From assembly GCA_030145305.1 (NCBI GenBank), contig JAQYVX010000008.1, forward strand, positions 1 to 64,000: a stretch of DNA of 64,000 nt, written 5' to 3'. Position numbers and translations under genes: made by a program. Positions 3,327 through 44,439 of the stretch are shown in pieces. The notes under the pieces are model-generated. The model saw nothing but the letters and a program-made list of their open reading frames with translations. It was not told the origin of the DNA and did no database searches. The stretch's first letter is position 1, and every line of letters starts with the position of its first letter. This DNA comes from Halarcobacter sp. (GTDB lineage Bacteria; Campylobacterota; Campylobacteria; Campylobacterales; Arcobacteraceae).

Positions 3327-4400
3327 ATGAAAAAAAGAATTGGTATTTTAACTAGTGGTGGTGATTGCCCAGGTCTTAACGCAGCAATAAGAGGGGTGGC
3401 AAAAGCTTCATATGAACTTTTTGACTGTGAATTTGTTGGTATTCATGACGGATATCAAGGCTTAATTGATGGTAATTTCCGTGATCTTACACCAAAGGAT
3501 TTTTCAGGCATTCTTACTCTAGGCGGTACAATGCTAGGAACGAGAAGAACTCCATTTAAAAGAATGCGTAAAATAGAAGATGATGGTGTTGATAAAGTAA
3601 GGAATATGATTAAAAATTATGAGAGCCTTGGCTTAGATTGCCTTATTACTTTAGGTGGTAATGGAACGCATAAAAATGCTAATTTACTTAGAGAAGAAGG
3701 TCTAAATGTAATAGGACTACCTAAAACAATAGATAATGATATTTATGGGACAGATTTAACCTTTGGTTTTCATAGTGCAGTTGATATAGCAACAGAAGTG
3801 ATTGATCGTATCCATACAACAGCTGATTCTCATGACCGAGTTATGTTAATTGAATTAATGGGACATAAAGCAGGGTGGCTACCTTTATATGCTGGCCTTG
3901 CAGGTGGAGCTGATGTGGTACTTATTCCAGAGATTCCTTACTCAATTGAAAAAATTTACGAAGCTCTTGAAGAACGTCAAAGCAAAGGTAAAAATTTCTC
4001 TATTATTGTTGTAGCAGAAGGAGCTATTAGCAAAGAAGAAGCTGTAATGAATAAAAAAGAATTTAGAGAACATCGTATGTCAATGAAACATCAAACTGTA
4101 TCTTATAGATTAGCTGAACAGATTAATAAAAATCTTGGCTTTGAAACAAGAGTTACAATTCCCGGGCATCAACAAAGAGGTGGCTCTCCTTCAGCTTTTG
4201 ATCGTATTTTAGCAACCAAATTTGGTGTTTATGCAGCAAAACTTATCAAAGAAGAACGTTATGGAAATACAGTTTCAATTGTAAATAATAAACTTCAAGC
4301 TACACCTTTAGAATATATGGCTCCAAAATTAAAGCTTGTAACAAAAGAAAATGAAGTCTTGAAAACTGGAGAAATAATGGGCCTTAAATACGGCGATTAA
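3327..4400 (+). CDS. pfkA: 6-phosphofructokinase
   Basis: Phosphorylates fructose-6-phosphate to fructose-1,6-bisphosphate in glycolysis. The glycine-rich donor-binding motif TSGGDCPG is at the N-terminus, followed by GGTMLGTRR, GGNGT, the catalytic PKTIDND loop and MGHKAGW. ATG 3327 is chosen because AAGGAG lies 6 bp upstream; a TTG at 3300 would add nine unlikely residues. GGNGT has Gly where PPi-dependent enzymes carry Asp, favouring ATP, while Lys in PKTIDND is typical of the long PPi/ATP group III clade. The donor is therefore inferred rather than certain. 357 aa is normal for that clade. Monocistronic, with an inverted repeat downstream. Confidence 0.9.
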   Translation: MKKRIGILTSGGDCPGLNAAIRGVAKASYELFDCEFVGIHDGYQGLIDGNFRDLTPKDFSGILTLGGTMLGTRRTPFKRMRKIEDDGVDKVRNMIKNYESLGLDCLITLGGNGTHKNANLLREEGLNVIGLPKTIDNDIYGTDLTFGFHSAVDIATEVIDRIHTTADSHDRVMLIELMGHKAGWLPLYAGLAGGADVVLIPEIPYSIEKIYEALEERQSKGKNFSIIVVAEGAISKEEAVMNKKEFREHRMSMKHQTVSYRLAEQINKNLGFETRVTIPGHQQRGGSPSAFDRILATKFGVYAAKLIKEERYGNTVSIVNNKLQATPLEYMAPKLKLVTKENEVLKTGEIMGLKYGD

Positions 4401-8461: not shown

Positions 8462-9619
8462 TTATAGGTTGACAAACTCTTTTTTATGTTTTATAACTTT
8501 TTGTAAATACCTTCTAGTTTCTGTATAAGGAAGTTTTTTAATAAGAGTGTTATAAACTTCAGAAGGTGTTTTTTTATTTATTAGATTTTTTGCTTTTTTG
8601 CTATTGGATGAAAATGTTTTTAAAACATTTCCACTTCCAGTATTATAAGCACTAATCACACAATACTCTTTAGATATTTTATTATAAATTCCACTTAAAT
8701 ATTTAGAGTTTAATATTTTTATATAAGCACTTCCTAGTTCTATATTATTCTTTGCATCAAAAAGATAAGATCGGGAGGGAGTCCAAACTCTTCCTTTAAT
8801 ATATTTGTATGAATCTTTTCCTGCACTACTTGGAACTATTTGCATTAAGCCTAATGCTCCTGCATTACTTATTGCAAATTGATTAAAATTACTCTCAGTT
8901 TTTATAATTGCATATATTAAGTTTTTACTTACATTGAATTTTTGTGCATATTTATTTACAAGTGGCTGGAATTTTGCAACTCTTATTGAGGCATGATCTT
9001 TAACCATAAGTATATTTACATAAGAAACAGTGAGATTTTTGCCATTTCTTTTAATCGTTTTTTGTTTCAGTTGTTTTTTTATTAATATATCTGCAAATCT
9101 ATTGGCTCGCCATTCATATCTTATATTTTTATTTTCATCATCTTTAATCTCTCCTAATAAATAAGGAGTTGAACCTAGTTTGACTTTATTTGTTCCAAAT
9201 AAATCTGCAGCTCTTGGGTCATCGGGTAAAAGTAGGGCGGTGGTAATTGCATTTTTTAGACTATTTTTAATATTTTTTGTATCAATAGTTTCAACAGTAA
9301 CAATTCCTTTGTCAAAATCAATTAAAGCTCTACTTTTGTAGTTTTGCATATATTTTACATACTCTTTTTTCTTTGGTATTTTTGCATTACCTTCTCCCCA
9401 TACAGAATTGATATCTTTTATAAAAGAGTTTATAAACTTAATATCTTTACTTAATCGTTTAGGATTTCTTGCATAAGATATGGCTTTAGAACGTGCCATA
9501 GATTGAAAAGCAGCGCTTGGGTTTTTATTTATTACAGCTGTTGTTATATTTATAGCATCGTTTATGCCACATCCTGTAAGAGAAAAAATTAATCCAAGAG
9601 TAAGTATTTTTTTCTTCAT
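8462..9619 (-). CDS. mltC: Membrane-bound lytic murein transglycosylase C-like lipoprotein
   Basis: Cleaves peptidoglycan glycan strands to 1,6-anhydro products. A lipoprotein signal with lipobox LTGC (C17) anchors it, probably in the outer membrane. After an N-terminal MltC-type region, the SLT domain (about 215-345) has the catalytic glutamate E242 in KTESNFN followed by AISNAGALGLMQIVP and a tyrosine/arginine-rich tail. 385 aa is close to E. coli MltC. It starts 2 bp after the stop of the DUF2461 gene and is probably co-transcribed with it. Confidence 0.88.
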   Translation of the reverse strand: MKKKILTLGLIFSLTGCGINDAINITTAVINKNPSAAFQSMARSKAISYARNPKRLSKDIKFINSFIKDINSVWGEGNAKIPKKKEYVKYMQNYKSRALIDFDKGIVTVETIDTKNIKNSLKNAITTALLLPDDPRAADLFGTNKVKLGSTPYLLGEIKDDENKNIRYEWRANRFADILIKKQLKQKTIKRNGKNLTVSYVNILMVKDHASIRVAKFQPLVNKYAQKFNVSKNLIYAIIKTESNFNQFAISNAGALGLMQIVPSSAGKDSYKYIKGRVWTPSRSYLFDAKNNIELGSAYIKILNSKYLSGIYNKISKEYCVISAYNTGSGNVLKTFSSNSKKAKNLINKKTPSEVYNTLIKKLPYTETRRYLQKVIKHKKEFVNL

Positions 9620-29857: not shown

Positions 29858-30068
29858 CCATTTTTTCCTTAATAAATTATTTGAATTACTCTTCAATTTT
29901 TAAATTATATTCCATCTTTTTAAGATTAAATATTATGTCTTTTATTTCTTTATCTAAGCTTTAAGTTTAAAGTAGTTTTAAAAAAATATCATTCTTAAAA
30001 AAACTAGTTTACATAATGGATGTCTAGCTCTCTCCAGGTGTTTATTTATTCTTTTAATAATATAAATT

Positions 30069-30725: not shown

Positions 30726-31133
30726 TTTAATATTTCCTTAGTATTTATATTTGCTAATATATTTTTTGATTTTGTATTGTCACATAAATAGTCTTGATTC
30801 AGTATTTAACTATTTCTTCTTTGATAAAATGTCGCTTCTTTTTATTTTATGTATTATGTCATCTATTTTAAGTTTACTAAGATAATTGTTTGATTCTATA
30901 TGTTCATATGAATTATATTATCCAAAACAAAGGCTCCTGTTCTCTTTTCTTTCTCTCCTTTATTCAATTTGTAATGTTTTAGTTTACTTAGTCTTTTCTT
31001 CTCTTAATAATTAAGTATCCTCGTATCTATATGCTATATTAAATCTAGAGAGTTTTAACTATTTAAAAAATATGTCATTTTGCAATTTTGATTAAACTAG
31101 AAGTGAGAAGTGGAGATTCAACCTCGGGGTGTA
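30726..31133. other. Gene-free stretch at the left margin of the accessory region
   Basis: About 400 bp, AT-rich, with several T/C tracts (CTCTTTTCTTTCTCTCC around 30935-30958). I see no ORF above ~35 codons with a ribosome-binding site, no tRNA and no long inverted repeat. It may be decayed sequence. Confidence 0.4.
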
Positions 31134-31248
31134 GTTTTAACGCCTAAAATAAACTATAAGGTGGCATTAATTCTTGGATATCTGGTCTTTCATCTAAACA
31201 ACTTTAGGAGATAAAAATTGGTATTTTCGTAGTTTAACCTTGTTAGTC
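31134..31248 (-). repeat. Possible degenerate attC-like site downstream of the toxin gene
   Basis: On the minus strand an R''-like GACTAAC (31242-31248) is followed 6 nt later by TTAAACTA. The far end carries TAGTTTATTTTAGGC then GTTAAAA (31135-31141 region). TAAC/GTTA ends and an internal AAACTA/TAGTTT stem are in the same arrangement as the two clearer sites at 32052 and 33471. The R boxes deviate from RYYYAAC/GTTRRRY, and R'' does not match the TA unit's 5' boundary, so this is only a candidate. Confidence 0.3.
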
Positions 31249-31275
31249 TCTTCTGATTTGTTGTATCTGCTATTA

Positions 31276-31557
31276 CTATGACGGTTTATTTTGGTTAAAT
31301 ATTTTTAGTATTTCAATTGTATTTTTATTTAAATTTACTTCATATATTATTGTATAACCTTTATATGTCATATCTCTAATATTATTATCATCAAAATAAA
31401 TTGATGATTTGTATTTAAATGGGAAATTTGGAATATTTAAGATTAATTTTTCAAGTTCTAATGTAAAATTTATACTTGCTGTTGGTTTATCTAATGCAAT
31501 GTAATTAATTATATCAATAACTTCTTTATCAAAAATTGGATTATAAATAATTGTCAT
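31276..31557 (-). CDS. ParE/RelE-superfamily toxin
   Basis: 93 aa with the RelE/ParE fold signature: N-terminal PIFDKEVIDIINYIA helix, central LEKLILNIPNFPFKY, and C-terminal beta strands DMTYKGYTIIYEVN...IEILKIFNQNK. It probably poisons gyrase or cleaves ribosome-bound mRNA; the family cannot separate these here. Its first base overlaps the antitoxin stop by one position, as in coupled type II TA operons. Confidence 0.8.
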   Translation of the reverse strand: MTIIYNPIFDKEVIDIINYIALDKPTASINFTLELEKLILNIPNFPFKYKSSIYFDDNNIRDMTYKGYTIIYEVNLNKNTIEILKIFNQNKPS

Positions 31558-31805
31558 TATCTATTTTCAATAGTTTTTAAATGATTTTTAATATTTCCCC
31601 AAACTTTTTCATGTGATACCATTTCTACTTTTCCATTATCAATATCATTTTTAATTTGATGTAGTTCTTTTTGTCTTTCGTAAAAATATGGGTCCTGTTC
31701 TAAGTTTTTATCTTTTGAAATAGTGATATTTTCACTATGGTTATTAACATAACTCATAAAATTTTGTACATAGCTATCTTTAATTTGTACTGCAATTGTT
31801 TGCAT
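31557..31805 (-). CDS. Type II antitoxin
   Basis: 82 aa from ATG 31805, with GGAG 7 bp upstream; a TTG at 31817 is in frame but lacks a ribosome-binding site. Short N-terminal strand (MQTIAVQIKDSYVQNFMSYV) resembling DNA-binding antitoxin N-termini, then a flexible charged C-terminus that would wrap the toxin. Paired with the ParE/RelE-like toxin and preceded by a 29-bp palindrome that is a likely autoregulatory operator. Confidence 0.7.
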   Translation of the reverse strand: MQTIAVQIKDSYVQNFMSYVNNHSENITISKDKNLEQDPYFYERQKELHQIKNDIDNGKVEMVSHEKVWGNIKNHLKTIENR

Positions 31806-31842
31806 AATAAACTCCAATATTTAATATATACATTATTTTATC

Positions 31843-32051: not shown

Positions 32052-32119
32052 ATATAACGGTTGAAGATAGCCAATAAATTTCCGCTAGGTAATTTATTGG
32101 CTACTCTGTTTTGTTAGAT
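32052..32119 (-). repeat. attC-like integron recombination site 1 (dgt cassette)
   Basis: Read on the minus strand: R'' box ATCTAAC (32113-32119), spacer, then a 13-bp perfect stem. TAGCCAATAAATT at 32068-32080 pairs with 32091-32103 around a 10-nt loop. Next come an extrahelical A (32067) flanked by further pairing, a spacer, and R' box GTTATAT (32052-32058). R'' fits RYYYAAC exactly. The site is only 2 bp past the dgt stop codon, where a cassette attC belongs. R'' is the exact complement of the GTTAGAT box at the 5' boundary of the same cassette (33471-33477). Confidence 0.6.
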
Positions 32120-32121
32120 GC

Positions 32122-33453
32122 TTAATGCCCCATTCCATTTAATTGATTAGCAACATGTTTTGCATGATTATCTGTCATTCCTACAATGTAATCAACTACT
32201 CTTTGATACATTTTATATAAATTATCTGACTTAATTGGTTTATTATCTTTACCCATTAGCTCTAATGCTCTTTTATCTCTAAAAGATAATTGTGACTCAT
32301 CCGTTTTATATAATTTATATGTTGCTCTTATTAAATTATTCAATAAAGTTTCAATAATATTATATGCACCTAGCTCTAATTCAATTTTTCTTTTATCATT
32401 AAATATTTTATTGTAACCTAACTTTTTTGCTTCTGCTATACCATTTTTCAACTCTTCATTTGTAAATATTGAAATTAAATCTTTTGGTTGCTTATCAGTA
32501 ATTATAGTTTCATAACTTTTTTCAAATATTTCCATTGCATGTACTGCTAGATTATTAATAGAAATTGCAACAAGTTTTGAAACTTTTTGAATATTTGAAT
32601 ATTTTTCATTCTTATATGTTTCTTTTGTTTTAGTTTTTCCACATAAAAAATTAAATATTTTTTTCATATCTTTTAAATTGACAATCTTTAATTCATAGGC
32701 ATCTTGTAAATCAAGAAGACCGTAACAAATATCATCCGAAACTTCCATTAAAAAAGAAAGTGGATGTCTTCTATATGTTCCATCATCATTTATTAAATCT
32801 AATTCCTTGAAAAGTAATTTAAAGAATTTCTTTTCACTTTGAAAATAATTAAATTTTGATTTACCAGTATTCTCACAATTACTTGATGAGTATGGATATT
32901 TTATTAATGTTCCTAATGTTGCCAATGTTAAATTCATTCCACCAGCAAATAAGTTATTTTCAAGTTGGCTAACTATTCTAAAACTTTGTGCATTTCCATC
33001 AATATGATGAAAATCATTCGATTTTTTAGTAGATAAATCTTTTAAAAATTGTTTTGATTTATTTTTTGAGAACCATTCTTTTATTACTTCTTCTCCAGCA
33101 TGACCGAATGGTGGATTTCCAATATCGTGAGCTAAACATGCTGTTTGTATAATATATGCAACATCATAAGGATTAATATCTTTGTCAAATTTCTTTAAAA
33201 ACTCTCCTGCCTTTAAACCCAAACTTCTTCCGACACTTGCTACTTCTAAACTGTGTGTCAATCTATTGTGTACATGGTCATTATTTGATAATGGATGTAC
33301 TTGAGTTTTTTTAGCTAATCGTCTGAAAGAATTAGAAAATATTAACCTATCATAATCTTTATGAAAACTACTTCTGTAATATTCTTGATATTTGTCTTCT
33401 TCTATTTCAGATTTATTGTTATATCTTTTTTTTGATAATAATTTGTTCCACAT
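32122..33453 (-). CDS. dgt: dGTP triphosphohydrolase (dGTPase)
   Basis: Hydrolyses dGTP (or other dNTPs) to nucleoside and triphosphate. 443 aa HD-domain protein: N-terminal [27 protein letters not shown], then metal ligands in RLTHSLEV (H67), the HD pair in [16 protein letters not shown] (H109, D110), and a second aspartate in [17 protein letters not shown]. Start ATG 33453 with AAAAGGAA upstream. It is the sole gene of an integron-like cassette. dNTP depletion by dGTPases is a known phage-defence mechanism, so a defence role is plausible, but nucleotide housekeeping cannot be excluded. Confidence 0.9.
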
Positions 33454-33470
33454 TTTCTATTCCTTTTGTT

Positions 33471-33603
33471 ATCTAACGACTAAATTAAAAAACATGCTAC
33501 CCTTTTGGATATTAGCTTTTAGCTCAAAGTCTGATTTAAAATTGTAACTCTAAATTACTTAAAAGCCAGTGGGTACCTTGTTTTTTTCTATGTTTTGTTA
33601 ACT
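33471..33603 (-). repeat. attC-like integron recombination site 2
   Basis: Minus strand: R'' AGTTAAC (33597-33603), spacer AAAACATAG, left arm AAAAAACAAGGTACCC (33571-33586), ~68-nt loop, right arm (33487-33502) pairing at 14 of 16 positions, spacer, and R' box GTTAGAT (33471-33477), a perfect GTTRRRY. It starts 16 bp after the stop of the 33620-34114 gene. The sequence just inside R'' (TAACAAAACA) is shared with site 1. Confidence 0.6.
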
Positions 33604-33619
33604 GTTTAATTGCTAAGAC

Positions 33620-34114
33620 TTATTGTGTCGAAGCAAAAGATTCATATGCTTTCATTATTTTATTTAGTGCATCATTTTTTGAAGATGAATAAGGCATTAA
33701 ATTAGAGGCAATTACAGCATAAGCTATATTGTCTTTACTTTTAATAGCAGAAGTTACTATTAAATCTAGCATTTCCGCTTTTGAAGATGAATAAGGTGAT
33801 TTTTTTGCTGCAAAAATTGCCATATTAAAATCATTTGATTTTAAAGAAGTTTTTACGACTTTTTTTAATGCATCACTTTTTGTTGAATTATATGGCATTG
33901 ATATAGCTGCGTTATACATAGATAAAAGCCATTTGTCTTTACCAGAATATTTTGGTAATTCTAGACTTAATTTAATATTTTCTTTTTTAATAATTTGTTC
34001 TATGGTTGTATGTTTAGCGATTGTAGATTTACTAGTAGGTGTATCTACAAATTGATAAACAGTAATAATTGCAGCAACTATTGTTGCAAGTGCTGAAAGT
34101 TGGTAAATATTCAA
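33620..34114 (-). CDS. Membrane-anchored protein with 34-residue repeats, cassette gene
   Basis: 164 aa from TTG 34114, with AGGAG 8 bp upstream. An N-terminal transmembrane helix (~4-22, LSALATIVAAIITVYQF) is followed by a cytoplasmic or periplasmic helical domain. This has three copies of a ~34-residue unit beginning PYSSSKxxAL (P74, P107, P141), each with a helix pair. No family recognised. It is an integron-like cassette gene with its own attC-like site; nothing else indicates function. Confidence 0.65.
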   Translation of the reverse strand: MNIYQLSALATIVAAIITVYQFVDTPTSKSTIAKHTTIEQIIKKENIKLSLELPKYSGKDKWLLSMYNAAISMPYNSTKSDALKKVVKTSLKSNDFNMAIFAAKKSPYSSSKAEMLDLIVTSAIKSKDNIAYAVIASNLMPYSSSKNDALNKIMKAYESFASTQ

Positions 34115-34130
34115 TATGACTCCTATACAG

Positions 34131-34144
34131 TTAACTATTTATTA
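34131..34144 (+). repeat. Left 14-bp direct repeat (att core) of the 9.2-kb element
   Basis: TTAACTATTTATTA, identical to 43324-43337. It overlaps the 5' boundary box of the second gene cassette (AGTTAAC at 34129-34135). Confidence 0.6.
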
Positions 34145-34210
34145 TATTTTTGTAGTTATGAATAACTAACTATACCTATAAAATCGTCATTGTAACTTTT
34201 ATTAAAAAAC

Positions 34211-34310
34211 TCTACACTATTTTTTTATTTATTTATAGTCACAGTTTGGGCACATTTAAACATATGAATTTTTTTAATTATATAGCTTAATGCTCAAATT
34301 ATAGTGTAGA
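34211..34310. repeat. Inverted repeat around the left integrase arm sites
   Basis: TCTACACTAT (34211-34220) and its exact complement (34301-34310) enclose the two GnCACA sites at 34236-34254. The spacing of ~80 bp is long for a hairpin in DNA; it could mark paired protein-binding sites at the element end or a remnant folded site. Confidence 0.4.
34236..34254 (+). promoter_or_regulatory. Arm-type integrase sites, left end
   Basis: Two direct copies, TAGTCACA and TGGGCACA, 11 bp apart. The ten-base word TTTGGGCACA recurs exactly at the right end (43256-43265), and TAGnCACA recurs at 43246-43253. Confidence 0.5.
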
Positions 34311-34376
34311 CCTTTCAATTTTGTATTAGAATTTTTATCAATATTATATTTTTTTAATATATCAACGAACTTTTTT

Positions 34377-37300
34377 CTATCTATCAACTATAGGTTTTTC
34401 TAACTTATTAAAGTTACACTTTAACATATGTTTTTTCTTATCTGTAACAGTAGATATATATTTAATCCTTTCAAGTTTTTCTAAAATAGTTAAATTCTCA
34501 GGACTATTTTTTATATTGATATATCTTCTATTATATAAATTGTTAATATTCTTGAAACTATGATTATCAATTACATTTAAAATTTCATATACTTCATCTC
34601 TATTTGCAAATCTATATAATTTGAATAGTTCAGTTTTTTCACTTTTTACAATATTTGATTTCATTATCAATAAATATTTTTCATATTCAATTTTTGATAT
34701 GTTATTTTTAATAGTTTCTACAAGATACTTTATAAAATTATCATCATTTTCTAAATATGTTTCATCAACATAATAATTTATAAGGTCAATAACATAATCA
34801 TTCATTTGTTTAAGTTTTAGTAACTCTTTAATTAATGTAATATCATCTATATCTAAAGTAACACTTATTTCATCTACTACAAGTCCACTTTTTAAAATCT
34901 TTCCTTCATCTTTAAGTTTAATAGAAAAACTATCTAAATACTTTGATAAAAGATTTACTTTTTTAGATAAACTTATATCACTTTGAAATAATGGGATTAA
35001 AGCATCTGTAGATATGTTATATGGATTATCTTTTACAACTTCATATAAATTATCCTCAAAATTATCAATCTCTCCAAAATATAAAGGTTCTACTACTCTA
35101 TTAACAAAATCAATCAAAGTATCATTATCAAAAACATTATCTTTTAAAATTTCATTAATAGTCTTGCCATTAAAAAAATTAAATTTATTTAATATTTCTG
35201 AAATATGCTCAGCAAATTTTTCTTTTTTTTCTTTTTTTGAATATTCTAAGTGCAAGTAGTTTAATAACAGTTCTAATCTTTTATTTAATTCTATATTTTC
35301 ATTTTTAAATATAAGTTTTAATACATCTATATTTGAACCTAAAATATCAACCTTAATTAAACTAACTATAGCTTCTAAAAAGTCATTATCTTCAGGAAAC
35401 TTATCATAGCAATAATTATTCAGTATTTCATATCTATCTTCTTCTTTATACTTTAAATTTTTAACTATTTCATATATACTATCCTTATCTATTTCAAAAT
35501 TTTGTATATTTGAACATATATTTTCACTATCTTGTTCTAATAATGATAAAGCCTGTTCTTTTGTCCCTTCTTCAACTAAATATGAGTAGTTTTCAGAATT
35601 AACCTTCATCTTATTTTCAATTATATAATCTAGTTTTCTTTCTGTAATATCTCCTAAATCTTTATAGTTAAATTCTTCTGAACTATTGTCAATTATTTGC
35701 TTAAATTCTTTAAACTCAATATCTTTAGAGTTAATTAAGAATTCAACCAATTTTGTAAAACTATTTGGATAATTTTTAAAAAATATTTTGTCAAAATTAT
35801 TCTTATCTTTGATGAATTCAATAAAATTTTCTCTTTTAATATAGTCTTTTTCGATAAATAGTTGATTTAAATTACTTATGTTTGGAGATATTCTTTTATT
35901 TTCATTTAACATACTCCAATAATCACAACTTACTTTTGTAAGGTCTGAGATTAATGTAGTATTTGCATGTAGAAATATTTGAACATTTTCCCGTGTTATT
36001 TTTTCATTATCAAGTAGGTCTATTACTGCTTTTTCATCTTCATTAGCATTTTGTATATATGTGTATACATTTTGAATATATTCATTTATATTTTGAAATA
36101 TATAAGTAGATAATACATTAGGTGAACGTTTTTCTATTAATGTATAGTTTTTTTTATAAAACTCATCTTCTGAAGCGTCTAATAGACTTTCAATCCAGAA
36201 CATATTTATTTTGTAAAGACTAAAAATTTCAATAATGTTAAAAGTTCCACTATATTTATTTTTTGAAATATCATTTAACTTGACAAATTTGACATTAAGA
36301 CTTTTTAGCAGTTCATGAAAAGTAGTTATTTCAATTGTTAATCCATCAATAATTCTTGACAGTTCTTCTTTTTCATTAAGATAAGTAGTTAATGAATTAT
36401 CTATATTTAAACTTCTTAATTTTTGAACTTCAATATTATTTATAAGATATATAAAATATTCTTCTTTCTTTTTTTCATCTAAATTATCATTAACTATCTT
36501 CCAAAAAGATGTATTAATATCACATATTTTATTTAAAAAAATTTTTATTAATTTTGTATCTGATTTTTCATTTAGATATTCTATAAATCCATTAATAAAA
36601 TCAAACATTACTTCATCTAGTATAAATTCTAATTTTATAGATAGATACTTTTTTTCTAACTCTATATTTTTAGATAAAAGATTTGCACATAAATCAAAGT
36701 TTAAAATACTTTCTTTTTCAAACTCTTCTTCATTTAAATATTCTATTATTTTTTCAATTTCTTTTAGTTTTAAACTGAATGAAAGTGCAGGTTTATTACT
36801 TTTTATATTTTCAATAAAATTTATATCATTAATGGATTTACCACCTTCATAATAAAAAGAAATATAATTGTGATAAGTTTCATCTAAATGTCCATATCTT
36901 ATAAGGTATGAAAGAACTTTATTCTGATATAACTTCTTTCCTAACACTAACTTTGCATCATAATTTAAAACTAATTTCTGTAAATTATTTTGATTAATAT
37001 TATTTATTTTTTCTTTTAATTCAAGTATTTTTAATTTACATTCTTCAATCTCATTTTTATATTTATTCTTGATAATATCAATTCTTTGGTTATATGTCAG
37101 ATTTGAATTTACTTCGTCTTCTAAATCTTTGAATGATTTTCTAATATCAATATAACTCTGATAATTATTGGAATATCGTATTCTTGATAATTCTTTAAAT
37201 TTATTAAAACTATCATCTTCCAATAATTTATTTAAATAAATTATTTCATTTTCTTCATCATGTATGTATGTTATACCATGATTATTGATATATTTAAAAA

Positions 37301-38825
37301 ATTGCTGAACATAGACTGCTCTTAATTCTTTAATATTTAATCTTATTTCGTTTTTTGAACTTTCTTCATAAGCTTTTTTATCATTTTGGTAATCAGTGAT
37401 TTCTTGTTCAATTTTATCTATAACATCTTTCAAACGTACTTTTAAATCATTTTTATTGAATGCTCTATACACCATTCCTTTGTTTTTATGAAGTTTTGCA
37501 AAATCTGATGGATAGTAGTTTTTATAAATAGACATTGCAAGAAGTTTGTCATAACTTAAATTAATTTTTTTATTTTCATCATTTGAATCACAAAGAAGTC
37601 TTTTATATGTTATAAACTCATTAAAAATATTTTTTAACAGTCTCATATCATGTATAAAGATAGAAATATCTTGTACAAACCTTTTAGATAGATATACCTT
37701 TGATTTATTTTTTATTTTTTCTAATTCTTCATCATTAAATATATTAATACCTGCTTCATTAATTAACTCTTTTATTTTAGTATAAGAATTAGATGAGTTA
37801 ATAACAGGGATAACAGGAATAAATGCATCAAAAAACTTTGTTCTTTCTTCGTCTTTAAATATATTATCCTTAATTGCATAAATAAATTTAATTTCTCTTT
37901 TTTTGTTAATTTGATTACATTTATTGAGTAACTCATTAATCTCTCTTAGCTTGATGAAAATCTCTGGATTTTTAAATCTATCTAAATCTTCAATTACTAC
38001 AATATTATATTTTGTTGATTCAAAAAAGTATATGATTTCATCTAAATGCTTATTCATTATTGATTGTTCAGAGTTTTCATCATTTAAGTCTATTTCTGGT
38101 GATTGCAAACTAAGTTTTTGAAGTTTTATTCTTGGAAATAACCTTATTAATGAAAAAATAAAATATAATATACCCGCAGTAAATATAATTGAACTTAGCT
38201 CATTTAAATAGAATCCATTTTCAAACTTACTTATATCTGTAAAAGAAAAGATTTTTTTAAATTCATCTGATTTGAATAACTTAATAAATGAAAGAAGCCA
38301 TAAAAATATTCCAAATGTTTTTATTTTTATATACTTGATTGTCAATATACGTTTAAATCTTGAGTTTGGGATATTACTATAATCAACTTTATAAAACATT
38401 TGTTGAAGAATACTTTTTTCAATCTCTTTTATATCAATATCTAATAAATTATTTCTAGGTTCTTTTGTAGTATCATTAGTAGGAATTCTTTTGTCAAGAC
38501 CAATGTCTTCTTTATTATTAGATATTTTCTTTTTACTTTTAAATGTAGCGAGTGAAATGTTTAAAAACTTATAGTCATCTCTCCAATTATTCTCTTTCTC
38601 AAAAGATTTTATTATAGTGCTTTTACCTGACCCATAAGTACCCGAGAGAGCAATATTATTTACACCTTTAGTATTTAAAACTTTATCTAAAGATTTAAAA
38701 TATACTTCATTCTTTTCATTATCTCTAGGAATTAAACTAAATATATCTTGTTCTTCATTTTTCTCTTTATTTTCGAGATAGTAAAGAAGTTGTTTTAGTT
38801 TATTAGTTATTATTTTTTTTATCAT
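34377..38825 (-). CDS. YobI-like membrane P-loop NTPase, 1482 aa
   Basis: The N-terminus resembles the YobI-type ATPase family: SLIPRDNEKNEVYFKSLDKVL, Walker A GTYGSGKST (62-70), DYKFLNISLATF, then two hydrophobic segments (~169-186 and 209-230) inserted before Walker B NIVVIEDLDR (274-283), as in KAP/YobI NTPases. About 1100 C-terminal residues are helical, coiled-coil-prone and unlike anything I recognise. It is probably a membrane-tethered ATP switch with a large sensor or effector tail. Divergent from a 366-aa gene, and cargo of an integrative element; a defence role is an inference from family and context. Confidence 0.7.
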   Translation of the reverse strand: MIKKIITNKLKQLLYYLENKEKNEEQDIFSLIPRDNEKNEVYFKSLDKVLNTKGVNNIALSGTYGSGKSTIIKSFEKENNWRDDYKFLNISLATFKSKKKISNNKEDIGLDKRIPTNDTTKEPRNNLLDIDIKEIEKSILQQMFYKVDYSNIPNSRFKRILTIKYIKIKTFGIFLWLLSFIKLFKSDEFKKIFSFTDISKFENGFYLNELSSIIFTAGILYFIFSLIRLFPRIKLQKLSLQSPEIDLNDENSEQSIMNKHLDEIIYFFESTKYNIVVIEDLDRFKNPEIFIKLREINELLNKCNQINKKREIKFIYAIKDNIFKDEERTKFFDAFIPVIPVINSSNSYTKIKELINEAGINIFNDEELEKIKNKSKVYLSKRFVQDISIFIHDMRLLKNIFNEFITYKRLLCDSNDENKKINLSYDKLLAMSIYKNYYPSDFAKLHKNKGMVYRAFNKNDLKVRLKDVIDKIEQEITDYQNDKKAYEESSKNEIRLNIKELRAVYVQQFFKYINNHGITYIHDEENEIIYLNKLLEDDSFNKFKELSRIRYSNNYQSYIDIRKSFKDLEDEVNSNLTYNQRIDIIKNKYKNEIEECKLKILELKEKINNINQNNLQKLVLNYDAKLVLGKKLYQNKVLSYLIRYGHLDETYHNYISFYYEGGKSINDINFIENIKSNKPALSFSLKLKEIEKIIEYLNEEEFEKESILNFDLCANLLSKNIELEKKYLSIKLEFILDEVMFDFINGFIEYLNEKSDTKLIKIFLNKICDINTSFWKIVNDNLDEKKKEEYFIYLINNIEVQKLRSLNIDNSLTTYLNEKEELSRIIDGLTIEITTFHELLKSLNVKFVKLNDISKNKYSGTFNIIEIFSLYKINMFWIESLLDASEDEFYKKNYTLIEKRSPNVLSTYIFQNINEYIQNVYTYIQNANEDEKAVIDLLDNEKITRENVQIFLHANTTLISDLTKVSCDYWSMLNENKRISPNISNLNQLFIEKDYIKRENFIEFIKDKNNFDKIFFKNYPNSFTKLVEFLINSKDIEFKEFKQIIDNSSEEFNYKDLGDITERKLDYIIENKMKVNSENYSYLVEEGTKEQALSLLEQDSENICSNIQNFEIDKDSIYEIVKNLKYKEEDRYEILNNYCYDKFPEDNDFLEAIVSLIKVDILGSNIDVLKLIFKNENIELNKRLELLLNYLHLEYSKKEKKEKFAEHISEILNKFNFFNGKTINEILKDNVFDNDTLIDFVNRVVEPLYFGEIDNFEDNLYEVVKDNPYNISTDALIPLFQSDISLSKKVNLLSKYLDSFSIKLKDEGKILKSGLVVDEISVTLDIDDITLIKELLKLKQMNDYVIDLINYYVDETYLENDDNFIKYLVETIKNNISKIEYEKYLLIMKSNIVKSEKTELFKLYRFANRDEVYEILNVIDNHSFKNINNLYNRRYINIKNSPENLTILEKLERIKYISTVTDKKKHMLKCNFNKLEKPIVDR

Positions 38826-38948
38826 ATTTAAACTTTCATTAAATTTATTTATTACTTTTTAAAGTTTTAATTATAATATATTTGTATATTATTCTATATT
38901 AACCAATACATTACTTTACACCTAATAATTTTTTAATAAAGGACTTTT

Positions 38949-40049
38949 ATGTACGAACTAGATAAAGTAAACCAAAACATACTAAAAAGCTATTTTGAAT
39001 GTATTAAAAAAGAACTTGATAATAAGAATAAAGTTCTTATACTTCTTGCAATTAAACATGCAGTAAAAAAAATGCTTCCTAATGAACTAGATAAACTATT
39101 AGAACCTAAGATTAGACAAGTAGGTAAAACTTTAGATATTGCATTTGAAAGAAAAATAGAAAAGTTTAATTCTGTTGAAGAAGCACAAAACTTATTTAAA
39201 GAACAATTTCAAGAAGCATATAACTATGCATTTGATAATCCTAATGAAACTTTTTCTCAAATGATTATGATGGCATATGATTTATGTAAATATGATACAA
39301 AACTTACTTACAAAGGAAATACTTCATTATTCAATATTTCTTTTATTCTTCGTGCTTACAGGCAACACTATAAAGCAGATAAAAGATGGTTAAGGGAAAG
39401 AAACATTAAACCCAATGAAAGAAATATAAATATATCTCTTAATACTAATAAGGCTTTAAAAGACCAAGTTAAATTTTTAGAAAGCTCCTATGAGTTATAT
39501 AAAGATAATCCATATAGTAAAGATTTAATAAAAGATATTGAACTAGGTATTATTGATGGATATAAAAATGATAAACACATGATGACAAGAAGTATTTATG
39601 AGATAGCTAATATACATCACTCTTTAAAGGATTTACTAAAAGATGAATCAAAGACTATCATTCATGCTTTTAAAAATGTAAAACACTCATTAGATAGTGA
39701 TAAAGTAATTGATAGAACTGATATTATGAATAGTTGGATAACTAATATAGCATTACTATATACTAAAATAAATCCCCAAGGAATTAAGAAAACAGAATTA
39801 TCAGACTTTATTGTTAAAGTTGCAAACTATACTACTATTTATAAAGAAGAAACTACAAAAAAGCTTTTTAGTCCTGAAAAACTTAGAAAAAATGATTATA
39901 GAGAAAAAGCACAATACAAAGGTCTTAGATTAATGGAAATTACAGACAAAAGATATAAGCTTTCACATAATGAACAATCTACCAAAGAAACAGAAGAATA
40001 CTTAACTCATATAATAGAATACCTATCAAAATATCAAAAATCTAAGTAA
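38949..40049 (+). CDS. Unknown 366-aa helical protein, divergent partner of the NTPase
   Basis: No family recognised. Soluble, charged and helical, no signal peptide. Distinct regions: an N-terminal helical bundle (~1-110) and a basic stretch (RAYRQHYKADKRWLRERNIKPNERN, ~138-162). ATG 38949 follows a run of AATTTTTTAATAAAGGACTTTT with AAAGGA 6 bp before it. It shares a 123-bp divergent intergenic region with the 1482-aa NTPase, so the two are likely co-regulated parts of one system. Confidence 0.6.
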   Translation: MYELDKVNQNILKSYFECIKKELDNKNKVLILLAIKHAVKKMLPNELDKLLEPKIRQVGKTLDIAFERKIEKFNSVEEAQNLFKEQFQEAYNYAFDNPNETFSQMIMMAYDLCKYDTKLTYKGNTSLFNISFILRAYRQHYKADKRWLRERNIKPNERNINISLNTNKALKDQVKFLESSYELYKDNPYSKDLIKDIELGIIDGYKNDKHMMTRSIYEIANIHHSLKDLLKDESKTIIHAFKNVKHSLDSDKVIDRTDIMNSWITNIALLYTKINPQGIKKTELSDFIVKVANYTTIYKEETTKKLFSPEKLRKNDYREKAQYKGLRLMEITDKRYKLSHNEQSTKETEEYLTHIIEYLSKYQKSK

Positions 40050-40144
40050 AAATTAAACTATCAAGACTTCCATACTTTACATATTTTTCTACTGACAAAA
40101 GAACTTTAAAAAATATATCATAATATCACGAATTCGATAACTAT

Positions 40145-40173
40145 TAAGAGCTCTTAGTAAATTTAATACTAAG
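40145..40173 (+). promoter_or_regulatory. Overlapping palindrome and hairpin before the 85-aa gene
   Basis: A 12-bp palindrome TAAGAGCTCTTA (40145-40156) overlaps a hairpin CTTAGTA (40153-40159)/TACTAAG (40167-40173) whose distal arm reaches into the AAGGA ribosome-binding site (40171-40175) for the ATG at 40182. It could be an operator, a translational switch, or both. Confidence 0.4.
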
Positions 40174-40181
40174 GATAAACA

Positions 40182-40439
40182 ATGTTAAAACTAAAAGGAT
40201 TACTAATTAATACAATTGGTAAAAGCAAGTATAAAAAAGAGGATGGATTAGAAGTTGAAACAAAAGCAAAGCTTCAAATCTTAGCAGAAGTAGTAAGAGC
40301 AAATGGAACAAAAGTAAAAGAGCTTCATACAATCTCTATTCCTGATTCAAAGATTGAGTTATACAAAGGAAAAGAGAACAAAGAGGTTGAAGTTGATGTA
40401 GGAATCATATCTTCAAAATATAGTTTCTATGGTCTTTAA
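40182..40439 (+). CDS. Small element-borne protein, possible ssDNA-binding
   Basis: 85 aa, beta-strand-rich pattern (LKGLLINTIG, EVETKAKLQILAEVV, KVKELHTISIP, KEVEVDVGIISSKYSFYGL) with spaced basic residues. Position immediately before a Rep_trans-type initiator is where rolling-circle elements and filamentous phages often encode a small single-stranded-DNA-binding protein. The assignment is from context and secondary-structure pattern only. Confidence 0.5.
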   Translation: MLKLKGLLINTIGKSKYKKEDGLEVETKAKLQILAEVVRANGTKVKELHTISIPDSKIELYKGKENKEVEVDVGIISSKYSFYGL

Positions 40440-40447
40440 TCTATGGG

Positions 40448-40542
40448 GACACTCTTTATAAAAAATCTTAATAAACGGAGGTTTATTAAAATTTTTTAAA
40501 GGTGTCGCAACAAAAAAAGTCAGGGGTTATTAGTAATACCCC
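40448..40542 (+). other. Structured DNA before rep, candidate origin of replication/transfer
   Basis: A long imperfect hairpin spans 40448-40506: GACAC pairs with GTGTC, AAAAAAT with ATTTTTT, and TTAATAAAC with GTTTATTAA around a GGAG loop. A second GC-rich hairpin, GGGGTTATT with AATACCCC, spans 40523-40542. It lies between the 85-aa gene and the initiator gene. Such structured sequence next to a Rep_trans gene is a natural double-strand origin or oriT candidate; a terminator function for the upstream gene is the alternative. Confidence 0.45.
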
Positions 40543-40567
40543 TTGCTTAAACACAAGGAGAAAAAAC

Positions 40568-41911
40568 ATGAGTGAAATAAAAAAACTTTATGGCATTGAT
40601 ACTTTATATTTCTTCTTTGAATCTAATGAAAACTATGATGATTTATTTTTAGATATTTTAGACCAAATAGAAGATATAAAAGGAAAGTTTGAAAAAAGAG
40701 AGATTGAGTTTGAAAACAATGATATCTCTATTACTATAGAAGATATACATTTAAACTATTTAGGAAAGAAAGAAGGCTTTTATTGGTTTAAAGATTTAAA
40801 TGAGTTTTTTAGAATTGGATTTAAAGACAAGTATAAAAACAGAGGTTTAAATGATATAAGAGTACAACTACAAGGAAATGGTATTTATACTCTTGGTATT
40901 AGTTCATTAATTACTTTATTAAAAGAGATGCTAAAAGGATATATAAGTGATTATATACCAGTTACAAGAGCAGATATAAACTGTTTTATACAGTATGACT
41001 TATCTTTTATTTCAAAAGATATGTTTAGTACAAGAAAAAGAAAGTATTCAACTATAAATGAAATAGGAGATGCAAACAGTACACAAACTATTTATGTAGG
41101 AAAAGAGCCATTTAAACTAAGAATCTACAATAAAGGTTTAGAGCTAAAAAAGTCAAAGAAGTATGAACTTATGAATGAGTACTTTTTAAATAATGACCTT
41201 AGTTTAGATGAACCACTATTTAATATAGAGTTTCAAATGAATAGAACTCATTTAAGAGCCTATGAGATATTAACAGTAGAAGACTTACTACATAATGCAA
41301 AGAATCTATTTAATCAAGCTATGGAAGATATAAGACTAATAGATACAACCTCTATTACAAATGATACTTTAAAACATAACAAATACAAAGCAAAAACTCA
41401 TAGTCTATGGCAAGAGGTAAAAGATGAGTTTAATATAGTCTCTTTCTTACAATCAAGTATTTGTTTAAAAAGAGTAAAAAGAAAAGTATCTATTTATGAT
41501 GAAAACAAATTTGAGTTTGAATATATAGCTTTACTTAGAAAAGCATTTATAAATAACTTGCTAATAGATAGTGAATACTTATCTAGTTTATTCATAAAAG
41601 CAAAAGATTCACTAAATAAAACAACCTCAAATAAAGAACTAAAGAAAAGATATATAGATATAGAAGTTATCAATCCTGATAACTCAAAACAACACCTTAG
41701 ACAATTAGAAGATAAAACAATAATTGAACCAATTAAAACTATATCGGTATCAACACTAAGTGATTATGATTTACTTAGATACTTAGAAAAGGTTCAACTA
41801 ACCCAACATGAATCAAAAAGGAATAAAGATATTTATGAAGTTGCACTAAAAGAAGCTCTTAAAAGAGATTTAGTTCCTAATGTTTCAACTAAGGAGGTGC
41901 ATTATGATTGA
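40568..41911 (+). CDS. Rep_trans-type replication initiator / relaxase
   Basis: 447 aa from ATG 40568, with AAGGAG 9 bp upstream; an in-frame GTG-type start 66 bp earlier would read through the hairpin and is rejected. Motifs fit the Rep_trans (PF02486) rolling-circle initiator group: VTRADINCFIQYD (~132-144) and TIYVGKEPFKLRIYNKGLE (~174-192). It would nick one strand at the origin to start rolling-circle replication or mobilization, as MobT/RepL-like proteins do. The last ~8 bp overlap the following HTH gene. Confidence 0.75.
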   Translation: MSEIKKLYGIDTLYFFFESNENYDDLFLDILDQIEDIKGKFEKREIEFENNDISITIEDIHLNYLGKKEGFYWFKDLNEFFRIGFKDKYKNRGLNDIRVQLQGNGIYTLGISSLITLLKEMLKGYISDYIPVTRADINCFIQYDLSFISKDMFSTRKRKYSTINEIGDANSTQTIYVGKEPFKLRIYNKGLELKKSKKYELMNEYFLNNDLSLDEPLFNIEFQMNRTHLRAYEILTVEDLLHNAKNLFNQAMEDIRLIDTTSITNDTLKHNKYKAKTHSLWQEVKDEFNIVSFLQSSICLKRVKRKVSIYDENKFEFEYIALLRKAFINNLLIDSEYLSSLFIKAKDSLNKTTSNKELKKRYIDIEVINPDNSKQHLRQLEDKTIIEPIKTISVSTLSDYDLLRYLEKVQLTQHESKRNKDIYEVALKEALKRDLVPNVSTKEVHYD

Positions 41912-42230
41912 GATGGAAAATATAAACCTAATCAAAGATATTGCAAATGATATAGAAACAATTAAAAAATCTTTATCATCAATTCAAACTAAAAGATGGT
42001 TAACTACAAATGAGTTAGCAAAATATCTAGGCTACTCTAAGGATAGAATCTATAAATTAAAAAATATCTCTTTTATTGAGAATTTACATTTTTATAAAAA
42101 AGAGGGTAAAATTTTATTTGATAAAGTTGCAATTGATGATTGGGTAATTTGTAAGGAAAAAACAAATGAAACTAATCAATCGCAAAAACAAATTGTGGAT
42201 AACATTTTATCATCAATCAAAAAGATATAG
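41904..42230 (+). CDS. Helix-turn-helix excisionase-like protein
   Basis: 108 aa from ATG 41904, preceded by a strong AAGGAGGT. A helical N-terminus is followed by a MerR/excisionase-type winged HTH (RWLTTNELAKYLGYSKDRIYKLKN...FYKKEGKILFDKVAIDDW). It overlaps the rep stop by 8 bp and the integrase start by 65 bp, so all three are coupled. Expected to steer the integrase toward excision or to bind the promoter. Confidence 0.75.
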   Translation: MIEMENINLIKDIANDIETIKKSLSSIQTKRWLTTNELAKYLGYSKDRIYKLKNISFIENLHFYKKEGKILFDKVAIDDWVICKEKTNETNQSQKQIVDNILSSIKKI

Positions 42231-43236
42231 AAAATCTTTAGGTCTTGATGATACAAAGGCTAATCGCAAACTAGCAGAAACAAAATTAATTCCAGAGATT
42301 CAATATAAGTTGAATACTGGAGAGTTCTTTAAAGATGACAATGTTAAAAAAGTACCAACAGTAAATGAGTTTTTTAAAGTATCATTTGAGATACATAAAA
42401 ATCATAGAAGAGCTTTAACTCAAAAAAATTATCTATTTGTTTATAAAAATCATATAAAGCCTTATTTAGGCAATAAAAAACTTGATGAGATAAAACCCTC
42501 ACAAATAGCTACTTGGCAAAATAAACTATTAGAAACGCTTTCAACAAAAAGTTTATCTATGGCAAGAGCTGTTTTAAATGTAGTCTTCAATGATGCAATA
42601 GCAGATGAGATAATTGTAAGGAATCCTTTAAAGGTAATTAAGAAACCTCATAATGTACCAACTAGGGAAATTAAACCATTTACAAAAGATGAAATGTTTA
42701 CTTTATTAGATAATGTCAATGAAAAAGTAAGATGTTATTTTGCTATAGGTTTTTTTACAGGAATGAGAACAGGAGAAATTTTAGCTTTAAAATGGTCTGA
42801 TATAGATTATGAAAATATGATTATTAAAGTTAGACGTGCAAGACGTCAAGGAATAGAATCTAAGCCTAAAACAAAATCAAGTATTAGAGATGTAGATATA
42901 CTTGATGTTTTAATTCCTTATTTGAAAAATCATTTAAAGTTTAAAATACCTGAGTGTGATTATCTTTTTACAAGTAATTTTAAAGAACCTTACAATGATA
43001 CAACGGGAGTATTTGCAAGATATTGGAAACCTTTATTTAAAAAGTTAAATATTGAATATAGAAATCCATATCAAATGAGACATACATTTGCAAGTATGAT
43101 GATAAGTAATGGAGAAGATATCTTATGGGTAAGTAATATGTTAGGTCATACAACATCAGCTATGACATTAACTAAATATGCAAAATATGTTGTAAACAAA
43201 GATAAGAAAAGAGGTACTTTTTTAACCGCTTCATAG
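42166..43236 (+). CDS. Phage-type tyrosine integrase
   Basis: 356 aa. Arm-binding AP2-like N-terminus (LWITFYHQSKRYRKSLG), SAM-like core-binding region (~62-160), then the catalytic domain with R201 (TGMRTGEILALKW), a lysine at ~235-237 (KPKTKSS), R305 in PYQMRHTFAS, H328 in MLGHTT and nucleophile Y338 (TLTKYAKY). There is no IntI-specific insertion before the second catalytic Arg, so it is not an integron integrase. The stop is followed at once by three arm-type repeats and, 88 bp on, the right 14-bp repeat. Confidence 0.92.
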   Translation: MKLINRKNKLWITFYHQSKRYRKSLGLDDTKANRKLAETKLIPEIQYKLNTGEFFKDDNVKKVPTVNEFFKVSFEIHKNHRRALTQKNYLFVYKNHIKPYLGNKKLDEIKPSQIATWQNKLLETLSTKSLSMARAVLNVVFNDAIADEIIVRNPLKVIKKPHNVPTREIKPFTKDEMFTLLDNVNEKVRCYFAIGFFTGMRTGEILALKWSDIDYENMIIKVRRARRQGIESKPKTKSSIRDVDILDVLIPYLKNHLKFKIPECDYLFTSNFKEPYNDTTGVFARYWKPLFKKLNIEYRNPYQMRHTFASMMISNGEDILWVSNMLGHTTSAMTLTKYAKYVVNKDKKRGTFLTAS

Positions 43237-43265
43237 TGGCACAAATAGACACAATTTTGGGCACA
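43235..43265 (+). promoter_or_regulatory. Arm-type integrase sites, right end
   Basis: Three direct copies of a GnCACA word (TGGCACA, TAGACACA, TGGGCACA) at 10-12-bp spacing, the first overlapping the integrase stop codon. Matches the pair at 34236-34254 in sequence and orientation. Confidence 0.5.
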
Positions 43266-43282
43266 CTATAAATAATAGATTG

Positions 43283-43312
43283 GTTAAAGCCCTTATATAC
43301 AAGGGTTTTAAC
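43283..43312 (+). terminator. Hairpin after integrase gene
   Basis: Twelve-pair stem (GTTAAAGCCCTT at 43283-43294 with 43301-43312, one G-T pair) and a 6-nt loop, 47 bp after the integrase stop. It is the likely terminator, though no long T-run follows. Confidence 0.55.
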
Positions 43313-43323
43313 TTGGTGTTATA

Positions 43324-43337
43324 TTAACTATTTATTA
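43324..43337 (+). repeat. Right 14-bp direct repeat (att core) of the 9.2-kb element
   Basis: TTAACTATTTATTA, identical to 34131-34144. Beyond it, 43338-43635 holds no recognisable gene; a 12-bp palindrome AATATCGATATT lies at 43521-43532. Confidence 0.6.
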
Positions 43338-43635
43338 GTAGCACATTATATAGAAGATAGCCTAAAAATCGACAAATAACATATACAAAAAATGTCGTAT
43401 ATTGAAACTGCAACAAACACCTCAAATAAGGTAATTGAAGAGAAATTAGTAAAAAACATTGTAATTTGAAATATTTTTTCAAGCAATTTTGATTTTTTAC
43501 TATAGTTTTTATGTATGTTTAATATCGATATTTAGATGATAATAGTACATTGTGTATGTATATTAGGCGATATCGTGATAAACCTGCAAAATGTTAATTT
43601 TATAGAGCTAATAAATATTGAATCAGAAGAAAATA

Positions 43636-44439
43636 TTATTCTCCTTTTAAACCCTTTCTCATTGCTTCAAGTACTTTATTATCAGCTTTAACACCAGTAA
43701 ATAGTTCAAAAGCTAATACACCTTGGTATAAAAGCATATCTTCACCATCTTTTATTTCTAGTCCTTTTTCTTTTGCTAGATTTAAAAAAGGTGTCATTCT
43801 TCCATATACACAATCAAAAGCAAATTTTGCATTTTTTAACACTTCATTTAAAATTTGTTCTGGGCAAGGTAGTAGTTCATCTTTTAATCCAGCGCTTGTT
43901 GAGTTTACGATTAAATCATACTCTTTTATTTCAAACTCTTCCCACGTACTTGCTTTTAGATTATGCTTTTTAAAAAATTCTAATTTTCCTTCGCTTCTAT
44001 TTAAAACAGTAACTTCAATATTACTTTGTTGAAGAGCCAAAGAGATTGCTTTTGCAGTTCCTCCTGCTCCTAAAAGTAGCACAGATTTAACATTACCAAA
44101 ACTTTCAATTGCATGTAAAAATCCAGGAGCATCTGTATTATAAGCTATTGTTTTTCCATTTTTATTTATATAAGTATTAACAGCTTTTATTTCATTTGCT
44201 AAACCTCTTACTTCATCTGCATTTTTATATGCAAACTCTTTGTGTGGAACTGTTATATTAGCACCTTTATAATTGTTCTGTAAAAAAACATCTTTTATTG
44301 TATTTCCATCTTCTAGTAAGTGTTTTTTATAGATGCCGTTATATTTTAGGTTTTCAAATCCTGCATTATGCATTTGAGGGGATTTTGAGTGTTCTACTGG
44401 GTTTCCAAAAATTACAAATTCTTCTTTTTTATTTGACAT
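43636..44439 (-). CDS. aroE: Shikimate dehydrogenase
   Basis: NADPH-dependent reduction of 3-dehydroshikimate to shikimate. Substrate motif HSKSPQMHN near residue 17, catalytic lysine in NITVPHKE, NTYI and NTDAPGF, then the nucleotide-binding LLLGAGGTAKA and NRSEGKLEF. 267 aa is standard. It marks the return to conserved chromosome right of the element; the preceding 300 bp downstream of it are gene-free. Confidence 0.95.
   Translation of the reverse strand: MSNKKEEFVIFGNPVEHSKSPQMHNAGFENLKYNGIYKKHLLEDGNTIKDVFLQNNYKGANITVPHKEFAYKNADEVRGLANEIKAVNTYINKNGKTIAYNTDAPGFLHAIESFGNVKSVLLLGAGGTAKAISLALQQSNIEVTVLNRSEGKLEFFKKHNLKASTWEEFEIKEYDLIVNSTSAGLKDELLPCPEQILNEVLKNAKFAFDCVYGRMTPFLNLAKEKGLEIKDGEDMLLYQGVLAFELFTGVKADNKVLEAMRKGLKGE

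Follow-up and report, generated by a model that had tools for sequence, protein, structure and literature searches.

Gene cassettes and attC sites in the window

The window, which is the whole analysed stretch of 64 kb, contains three integron cassettes, all on the minus strand, coding for a protein without family assignment, a dGTPase and a gene pair ending in a ParE-type toxin. Their boundaries, open reading frames and attC sites are listed here with the scores of the covariance models R1 and R2.

33477..34134, minus strand: cassette 1, from the T of its 5' box GTTAACT to the G of GTTAGAT
33620-34114, minus strand: open reading frame of cassette 1, 164 aa, no family match
33471..33603, minus strand: attC of cassette 1 (site 2), long type, 133 nt, R2 52.6 bits
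32058..33476, minus strand: cassette 2, open reading frame 32122-33453, 443 aa, deoxyguanosinetriphosphate triphosphohydrolase
32052..32119, minus strand: attC of cassette 2 (site 1), short type, 68 nt, R1 71.0 bits
31141..32057, minus strand: cassette 3, two open reading frames
31557-31817, minus strand: first open reading frame of cassette 3, 86 aa, no family match, antitoxin by position only
31276-31557, minus strand: second open reading frame of cassette 3, 93 aa, ParE-type toxin (PF05016, 46 bits)
31135..31266, minus strand: attC of cassette 3 (site 3), R2 51.6 bits, last R' box GTTAAAA

A preliminary description of this region had proposed two consecutive minus-strand genes, each followed by an attC-like site. 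The coordinates and boxes agree with that account, as does the spacing: the attC at 32052-32119 starts 2 bp after the end of the gene 32122-33453, and the attC at 33471-33603 starts 16 bp after the end of 33620-34114. Cassette 3 was overlooked at that stage. The dGTPase of cassette 2 matches the family profile NF002205 with 542 bits (cut-off 439) and the PADLOC dGTPase model with 247 bits. Mobility of this gene as a cassette among relatives is not supported, R1 giving no attC match around eight homologues.

The attC models were derived from relatives only. DNA around 20 intI loci was fetched, and training sites were picked by script around the intI genes, some beside complete intI and others beside broken intI. 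R1 was built from 19 short and R2 from 11 long attC sites, with sequence of the host genome excluded from both; RNAalifold assigns 18 pairs to the R1 alignment, 5 of them changed on both sides. A loose R''/R' scan of the window yields many chance candidates, and its stricter form was used solely to choose training sites near the intI genes of relatives.

With filters off, R1 finds site 1 over the 64-kb window with an E-value of 8.5e-13; behind it rank the other strand of the same site, at 22.3 bits (E 0.045), and part of site 3, at 18.2 bits (E 0.36). Sites 2 and 3 are found by R2, the former with an E-value of 6.2e-9 when 12 kb are searched and of 1.6e-6 for the whole genome, the latter with E 2.5e-6 for the whole genome. 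R2 with default filters gives no match in the window, missing both sites, and over 12 other loci loses all but one attC site; the window sites are regained with filters off and in the genome-wide search. Site 2 is also matched by R1, with 32.9 bits under default filters and, with filters off, with 15.6 bits over part of the site. Rfam at gathering thresholds and ARAGORN found nothing in the window. The assignment of the two units to integron-type cassettes is borne out by these models, which match both sites and, in addition, the third at 31135-31266.

Minus-strand folding gives site 1 a stem of 13 pairs with a 10-nt loop and an extrahelical base, and site 2 a stem of 14 pairs, so the hairpins are as first described. 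Relative to shuffled sequences the folding energy is strong for site 1 (z -5.8 and -6.3 for the two strands), modest for site 2 (z -1.1 and -2.8) and no better than shuffles for site 3 (z +1.0 and -0.1). Because site 3 forms no stable hairpin, it may be a decayed attC.

In cassette 1 the R'' box AGTTAAC and the 5' box GTTAACT are exactly complementary, and the same relation holds for ATCTAAC and GTTAGAT of cassette 2, as had been pointed out from the sequence. Its generality was assessed on 100 attC sites, comprising R1 and R2 matches and training sites. Seven sites lacking AAC and GTT in their expected positions were left out, and the remaining 93 provided 59 cassettes with a detected attC upstream. 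Of the 4 variable positions, on average 3.53 agree between the R'' box and the 5' box of the same cassette (42 of 59 perfect) and 2.25 between the R'' box and the adjoining R' box (5 of 59 perfect), while shuffles have a mean of 2.16 and a maximum of 2.59 in 20,000. The mean is again 3.53 when the seven sites are retained (66 cassettes) and does not change when the two cassettes of the window are removed; an 88-site list leaving out 12 weaker or shorter matches (54 cassettes) gives a similar outcome. It follows from the 59-cassette count against the shuffles that box complementarity holds in the family. In the window, cassettes 1 and 2 fit perfectly and cassette 3 fits at 3 of 4 positions.

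Around 30000-30060, behind a 218-aa open reading frame, lies a CACCTGGAGAGAGCTAG stretch that is perhaps a decayed attC, backed by neither R1 nor R2. About 40 nt at 31102-31140 are 83% alike to another stretch of the same genome (L016, 4254-4294) in opposite orientation, and both lie just past the last detected attC of their arrays. A piece of 27-30 nt at 31060-31089, likewise just past the array, resembles the intI promoter region (84-96% identity to several loci); its orientation is opposite to that of the segment at 43325 described below.

An integrative element between attI and cassette 1

Upstream of cassette 1, between its 5' boundary and aroE, the window contains an integrative element and a segment related to attI and the intI promoter.

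34132..34144, minus strand: direct repeat TAATAAATAGTTA, element border next to cassette 1
34145..43324, strand not assigned: integrative element, 9.2 kb, at the junction of attI and cassette 1; ends and integration module common to an element in another genus (G032)
34377..38825, minus strand: cargo gene, YobI-like P-loop NTPase, Tmn-type by profile, 1482 aa (PF20693, 368 bits)
38949..40049, plus strand: element gene, 366 aa, no family match
40502..41911, plus strand: Rep-like protein (replication initiation factor), a weak match (PF02486, 23.4 bits, under the cut-off of 29.6)
41880..42230, plus strand: small helix-turn-helix protein, perhaps an excisionase (PF12728, 30 bits)
42166..43236, plus strand: tyrosine integrase of the element, 356 aa (PF00589, 82 bits; Arm-DNA-bind_2, SAM_3)
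43325..43337, minus strand: direct repeat TAATAAATAGTTA, element border inside attI; similar border in G032
43325..43603, plus strand: putative attI and intI-promoter segment; no intI present, intI would read on the plus strand
43636..44439, minus strand: aroE, chromosomal flank of the segment, homologue in 16 of 16 genomes of the genus

Genomic islands and satellite-like elements typically comprise a tyrosine integrase near one end, a small helix-turn-helix protein, a Rep-like gene, variable cargo and direct repeats. The window element resembles them in its gene set and repeats, with the difference that its attachment site would be the attI core and not, for example, a tRNA gene. Its tyrosine integrase and flanking direct repeats characterize it as a site-specific integrative element. 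The match of the 41880-42230 protein to the excisionase domain model reaches 22.5 bits, under the cut-off of 28.8. The 1482-aa cargo protein is predicted by profile to be a Tmn-type defence protein, matching the PADLOC Tmn model (PDLC02220) with 252 bits over residues 30-1037.

The repeats of the element correspond to the attI core, the border of cassette 1 being identical to 43325-43337 over 13 bp. Removal of the element in silico leaves AATAAATAG followed by TT and then cassette 1. The same reading, AATAAATAG followed by TT, occurs at the attI-cassette junction of four further copies in the host genome (copies A-D) and of the genome G060, a relative with full-length intI.

The nearest relative of the element integrase among 104 genomes, 89% identical, is encoded in G032. 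The element there is about 11 kb long; its integration module has 80% DNA identity over 2.9 kb and its left end 91% over 76 bp. Its cargo is of Qat type, with strong PADLOC matches for QatA, QatC and QatD and a weak one for QatB, so that a defence role is predicted for the cargo of both elements, the one matching Tmn and the other Qat. The G032 element has TAATAAATAGTT at both ends, with the same core as the window element, and lies between an attI-like stretch on one side and a cassette on the other. The 5' box GTTATCC and the R'' box GGATAAC of this cassette are exactly complementary. R2 gives its attC only 27 bits, and R1 detected no attC site on the two fetched stretches with the G032 element. 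Independent copies thus share the same kind of target in two cases only, the window and G032. A remnant of the left end of the element (80% over 118 bp) also abuts a cassette boundary in the array of copy B of the host genome. Since integrases with at most 55% identity lie at other places, many apparently beside tRNA-like sequence, a specificity of the element integrase for attI would draw on these two cases and one remnant. Viral contigs searched with the element integrase and the attI pattern yielded no match.

It could be argued that the element does not target attI, that its ends hold core-like AT-rich sequence by chance and that the nearness of attI is accidental. The AT-rich genome and the other targets of more distant integrases are in keeping with such a coincidence. 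It is improbable, however, given that the window element and its relative in another genus each have an attI core on one side and the 5' boundary of a cassette on the other, and that the 13-bp repeat, expected 0.07 times in the window, has exactly two copies there, only at the ends of the element, though 1 of 100 shuffles also reached two copies.

attI platforms without integrase and the history of the locus

Over 284 bp the segment 43325-43603 shares 80% identity with the G060 sequence that separates full-length intI from the first cassette, and by this homology it is assigned as a putative attI next to the intI promoter. It stops shortly before the expected intI start, and aroE comes next. 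The host genome contains five near-full copies of this attI/promoter platform, the one in the window and copies A-D, to which it is 79-81% identical; two weaker matches occur besides, on contigs C38 and C6.

C4:167916: copy A, beside an intI part (119 residues aligned), next to guaA
C4:157827: copy B, 99% identical to copy A
C4:226778: copy C, near radA
C6:376006: copy D

None of the five copies is accompanied by a complete intI. The full-length IntI that a complete integron requires is absent beside the window array, and no intI pieces were found beside the window platform. In the whole draft assembly of 77 contigs the integron-integrase profile finds solely an N-terminal intI part, on a contig other than that of the window; it covers model positions 2-115 of 315 with 117 bits, compared with a cut-off of 265. 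In addition, a script detected an 18-codon piece matching the end of intI just before radA, about 0.7 kb from copy C (L138, about 8760-8815). The lack of an integron integrase, originally reported for the window, thus extends in the genome to everything but this N-terminal part and the 18-codon tail. The N-terminal part corresponds to a 142-aa open reading frame beside guaA (G000:C4:168225-168569; L016 18145-18573) and heads a divergent cassette array.

The box of the first cassette and the first detected R'' box are perfectly complementary at copies A, B and C, at a lone cassette on contig C2, in the window and in G032; at copy D they misfit, with 1 of 4 positions. The lone cassette (L140, 2990-3440) has a 32-nt attI-like core upstream and a perfect 5' box (GTTAAAT/ATTTAAC), making it a one-cassette array. 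A palindrome, GGGGACTGTCCCC or a near copy, flanks copy B (L016, 8087-8110) and occurs near the lone cassette (L140, about 3660-3690); it is perhaps a mobile repeat.

Platform matches (E <= 1e-6) are present in 13 of the 16 genomes of the genus. In six of these genus genomes intI or a remnant adjoins guaA, and the guaA side is probably the ancestral place of intI. Among the platform matches compared by flanking open reading frames within about 1.1 kb, an intI-less locus is common to G067 and G068 only. Copies C and D and the copies in G054 and G062 have the same truncated form for 114-207 bp past the platform, with flanks that do not match over the roughly 1.1 kb compared; such shared truncated ends at unlike loci favour a spread of an already intI-less platform. 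The 18-codon intI tail before radA favours the loss of intI after arrival of the platform.

A near-full platform at aroE occurs in the host genome only, among the genomes examined. Thirteen aroE regions fetched from relatives contain no attI core and no R1 match; as three of them hold short weak platform matches of 20-49 nt, an older platform was perhaps present at aroE. The 49-nt match, in G056 (L320, 7188-7236), is about 0.8 kb away from aroE; it is 78% like attI, has no core and may be an old platform trace. The distance from aroE to the CBS gene is about 340 bp in G060 versus 18 kb in the host genome. On the other side, the solute-binding gene at 29069, considered as an anchor for an empty site, is present in 3 of 16 genus genomes, the host included, and the copies of the two relatives lie in other contexts.

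The locus is very probably a decayed chromosomal integron at aroE, which lost its intI and was later split at attI by an integrative element that encodes a tyrosine integrase of its own. The array is regarded as the cassette arm of this integron because the attI/promoter segment is located in the same window, split off by the 9.2-kb element. A platform consisting of intI promoter and attI, with cassettes of IntI type, would have arrived beside aroE, with intI present or not. The cassette boundaries suggest that an IntI of the G060 kind placed the cassettes at attI, and the absence of the gene suggests that intI, if present, was lost, leaving 43325-43603 behind. The attI core TAATAAATAG/TT would then have served the element as recombination site, at the G/TT insertion point of IntI or directly beside it, as indicated by the repeats and by the second case in G032. 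Insertion of the element would have duplicated the core and moved the cassettes 9.2 kb from attI, probably ending any expression of the cassettes from a promoter in attI. The attC sites could still serve an IntI acting in trans, a complete IntI being absent from the host genome itself.

The array could alternatively be a true CALIN, its cassettes inserted off-target by an IntI from another locus at an attG-like GTT site and unrelated to the attI-like segment 9 kb off. The label applied in the preliminary description fits formally, the window having no intI and more than the required pair of attC sites (our own models place three within 2.5 kb); the array is not free-standing, however, with the attI/promoter segment at 43325-43603 and the attI core at its border. 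Lone attC sites and several arrays occur in the host genome, and insertion at attG sites has been published (Loot et al., 2024, as cited in the accessible text of PMC12444791). An off-target origin is nevertheless quite unlikely here, as the border of cassette 1 is the attI core itself, in the 13-bp form found at 43325-43337, and the joined flanks recreate the attI-cassette junction of uninterrupted copies. That the sites might instead be plain terminators or repeats behind normal operons can be dismissed almost entirely: site 3 folds no better than shuffles and R2 with default filters missed the window, but this reading is largely contradicted by the R1 window search and the rule upheld in 59 cassettes, as well as by the matches of the cross-genome models and the intI genes beside such arrays in relatives.

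Beyond the decayed integron split at attI, a wider reading may be proposed, to which we give about an even chance. The integrase of a family of defence-carrying integrative elements would have evolved to use the integron attI as bacterial attachment site, and the integrons would have multiplied into several intI-less attI platforms, at which an IntI in trans could dock cassettes and defence elements could land. Because such platforms would serve cassettes and elements alike, the two capture systems would compete for the same G/TT junction, and the arrival of an element would sever the cassettes from attI and any promoter there.

Relation to known systems and to integrons of the family

Integrons, CALINs, decaying intI genes and defence islands are already known kinds. 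The attI-targeting element looks like a new variant, and the occurrence of several attI platforms with no complete intI in one genome looks like a new variant of known integrons and CALINs. A literature search on attI insertion, covering titles and abstract listings, revealed neither an integrative element using attI nor a genome with multiple attI platforms and no complete intI, which for listings of this kind is not proof of absence.

Close parallels are the sedentary chromosomal integrons and CALINs, especially those of Xanthomonas with its ilvD locus, which, according to the available portion of PMC12444791, combine one common place for intI (guaA here, in six genus genomes) with frequent intI decay and attC clusters elsewhere in the genome. 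Unlike those integrons as described there, several intI-less arrays in the present genome keep a recognisable attI and promoter, and an integrative element separates the window array from its attI. In delta-attI-type cassettes of class 1 and 2 integrons, attI pieces of up to 244 nt occur away from intI and are movable by IntI (PMC12901181, in the portion available). The platforms resemble them in being attI pieces away from intI; in the cases presented in that source, however, the piece replaces attC inside a mobile integron, whereas here copies of about 230-280 bp head arrays at separate chromosomal loci.

Integrase genes were counted in the family at E <= 1e-30 or over the curated cut-off, because the profiles NF011946 and TIGR02249 also match other tyrosine recombinases, with 14 of 14 control genomes matching at E <= 0.001. 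With TIGR02249 at E <= 1e-30, intI was found in 25 of 104 family genomes and 12 of 20 genera; 16 of 104 genomes exceed the curated cut-off, and the controls fall to 0 of 14. R1 (E <= 0.001) detects attC in 54 of the 104 genomes and 14 of the 20 genera, the other 50 genomes having no match. Integrons are thus common in this family (Arcobacteraceae), often without a complete integrase, and the initial impression that chromosomal cassette clusters are uncommon in this group did not hold.

Campylobacterota are listed among the phyla with integrons in the accessible text of PMC8618304, and PMC10295459, in the part at hand, records an In0 and a CALIN in Sulfurimonas autotrophica and two CALINs in Sulfurovum. 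Titles and abstract openings retrieved for integrons together with Arcobacter or Arcobacteraceae do not mention chromosomal integrons of the family, and in the available text of PMC6477937 the word integron occurs solely in a reference. The results point to a family of Campylobacterota rich in integrons, often integrase-incomplete, beyond the well-studied gamma-proteobacteria.

At this locus the docking site of an integron seems to have been captured by a second site-specific recombination system, which makes it a natural example open to direct testing with a single integrase and a short DNA target. How integrase-less attC clusters originate, whether by intI loss, off-target insertion or platform dispersal, is a question on which the recurrence of intI-less attI platforms in one chromosome also bears.

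Plasmid integrases are at best 50% identical to the IntI of G060, all being below 60% among the matches listed (at least 5000 records). An array of 13 short attC sites is located in G032 (G032:C1:2032074-2041760, L216), a genome in which no intI match reaches E <= 1e-30. The genome G042 carries three near-full intI copies with in-frame stops (on contigs C2, C15 and C23), together with shorter pieces.
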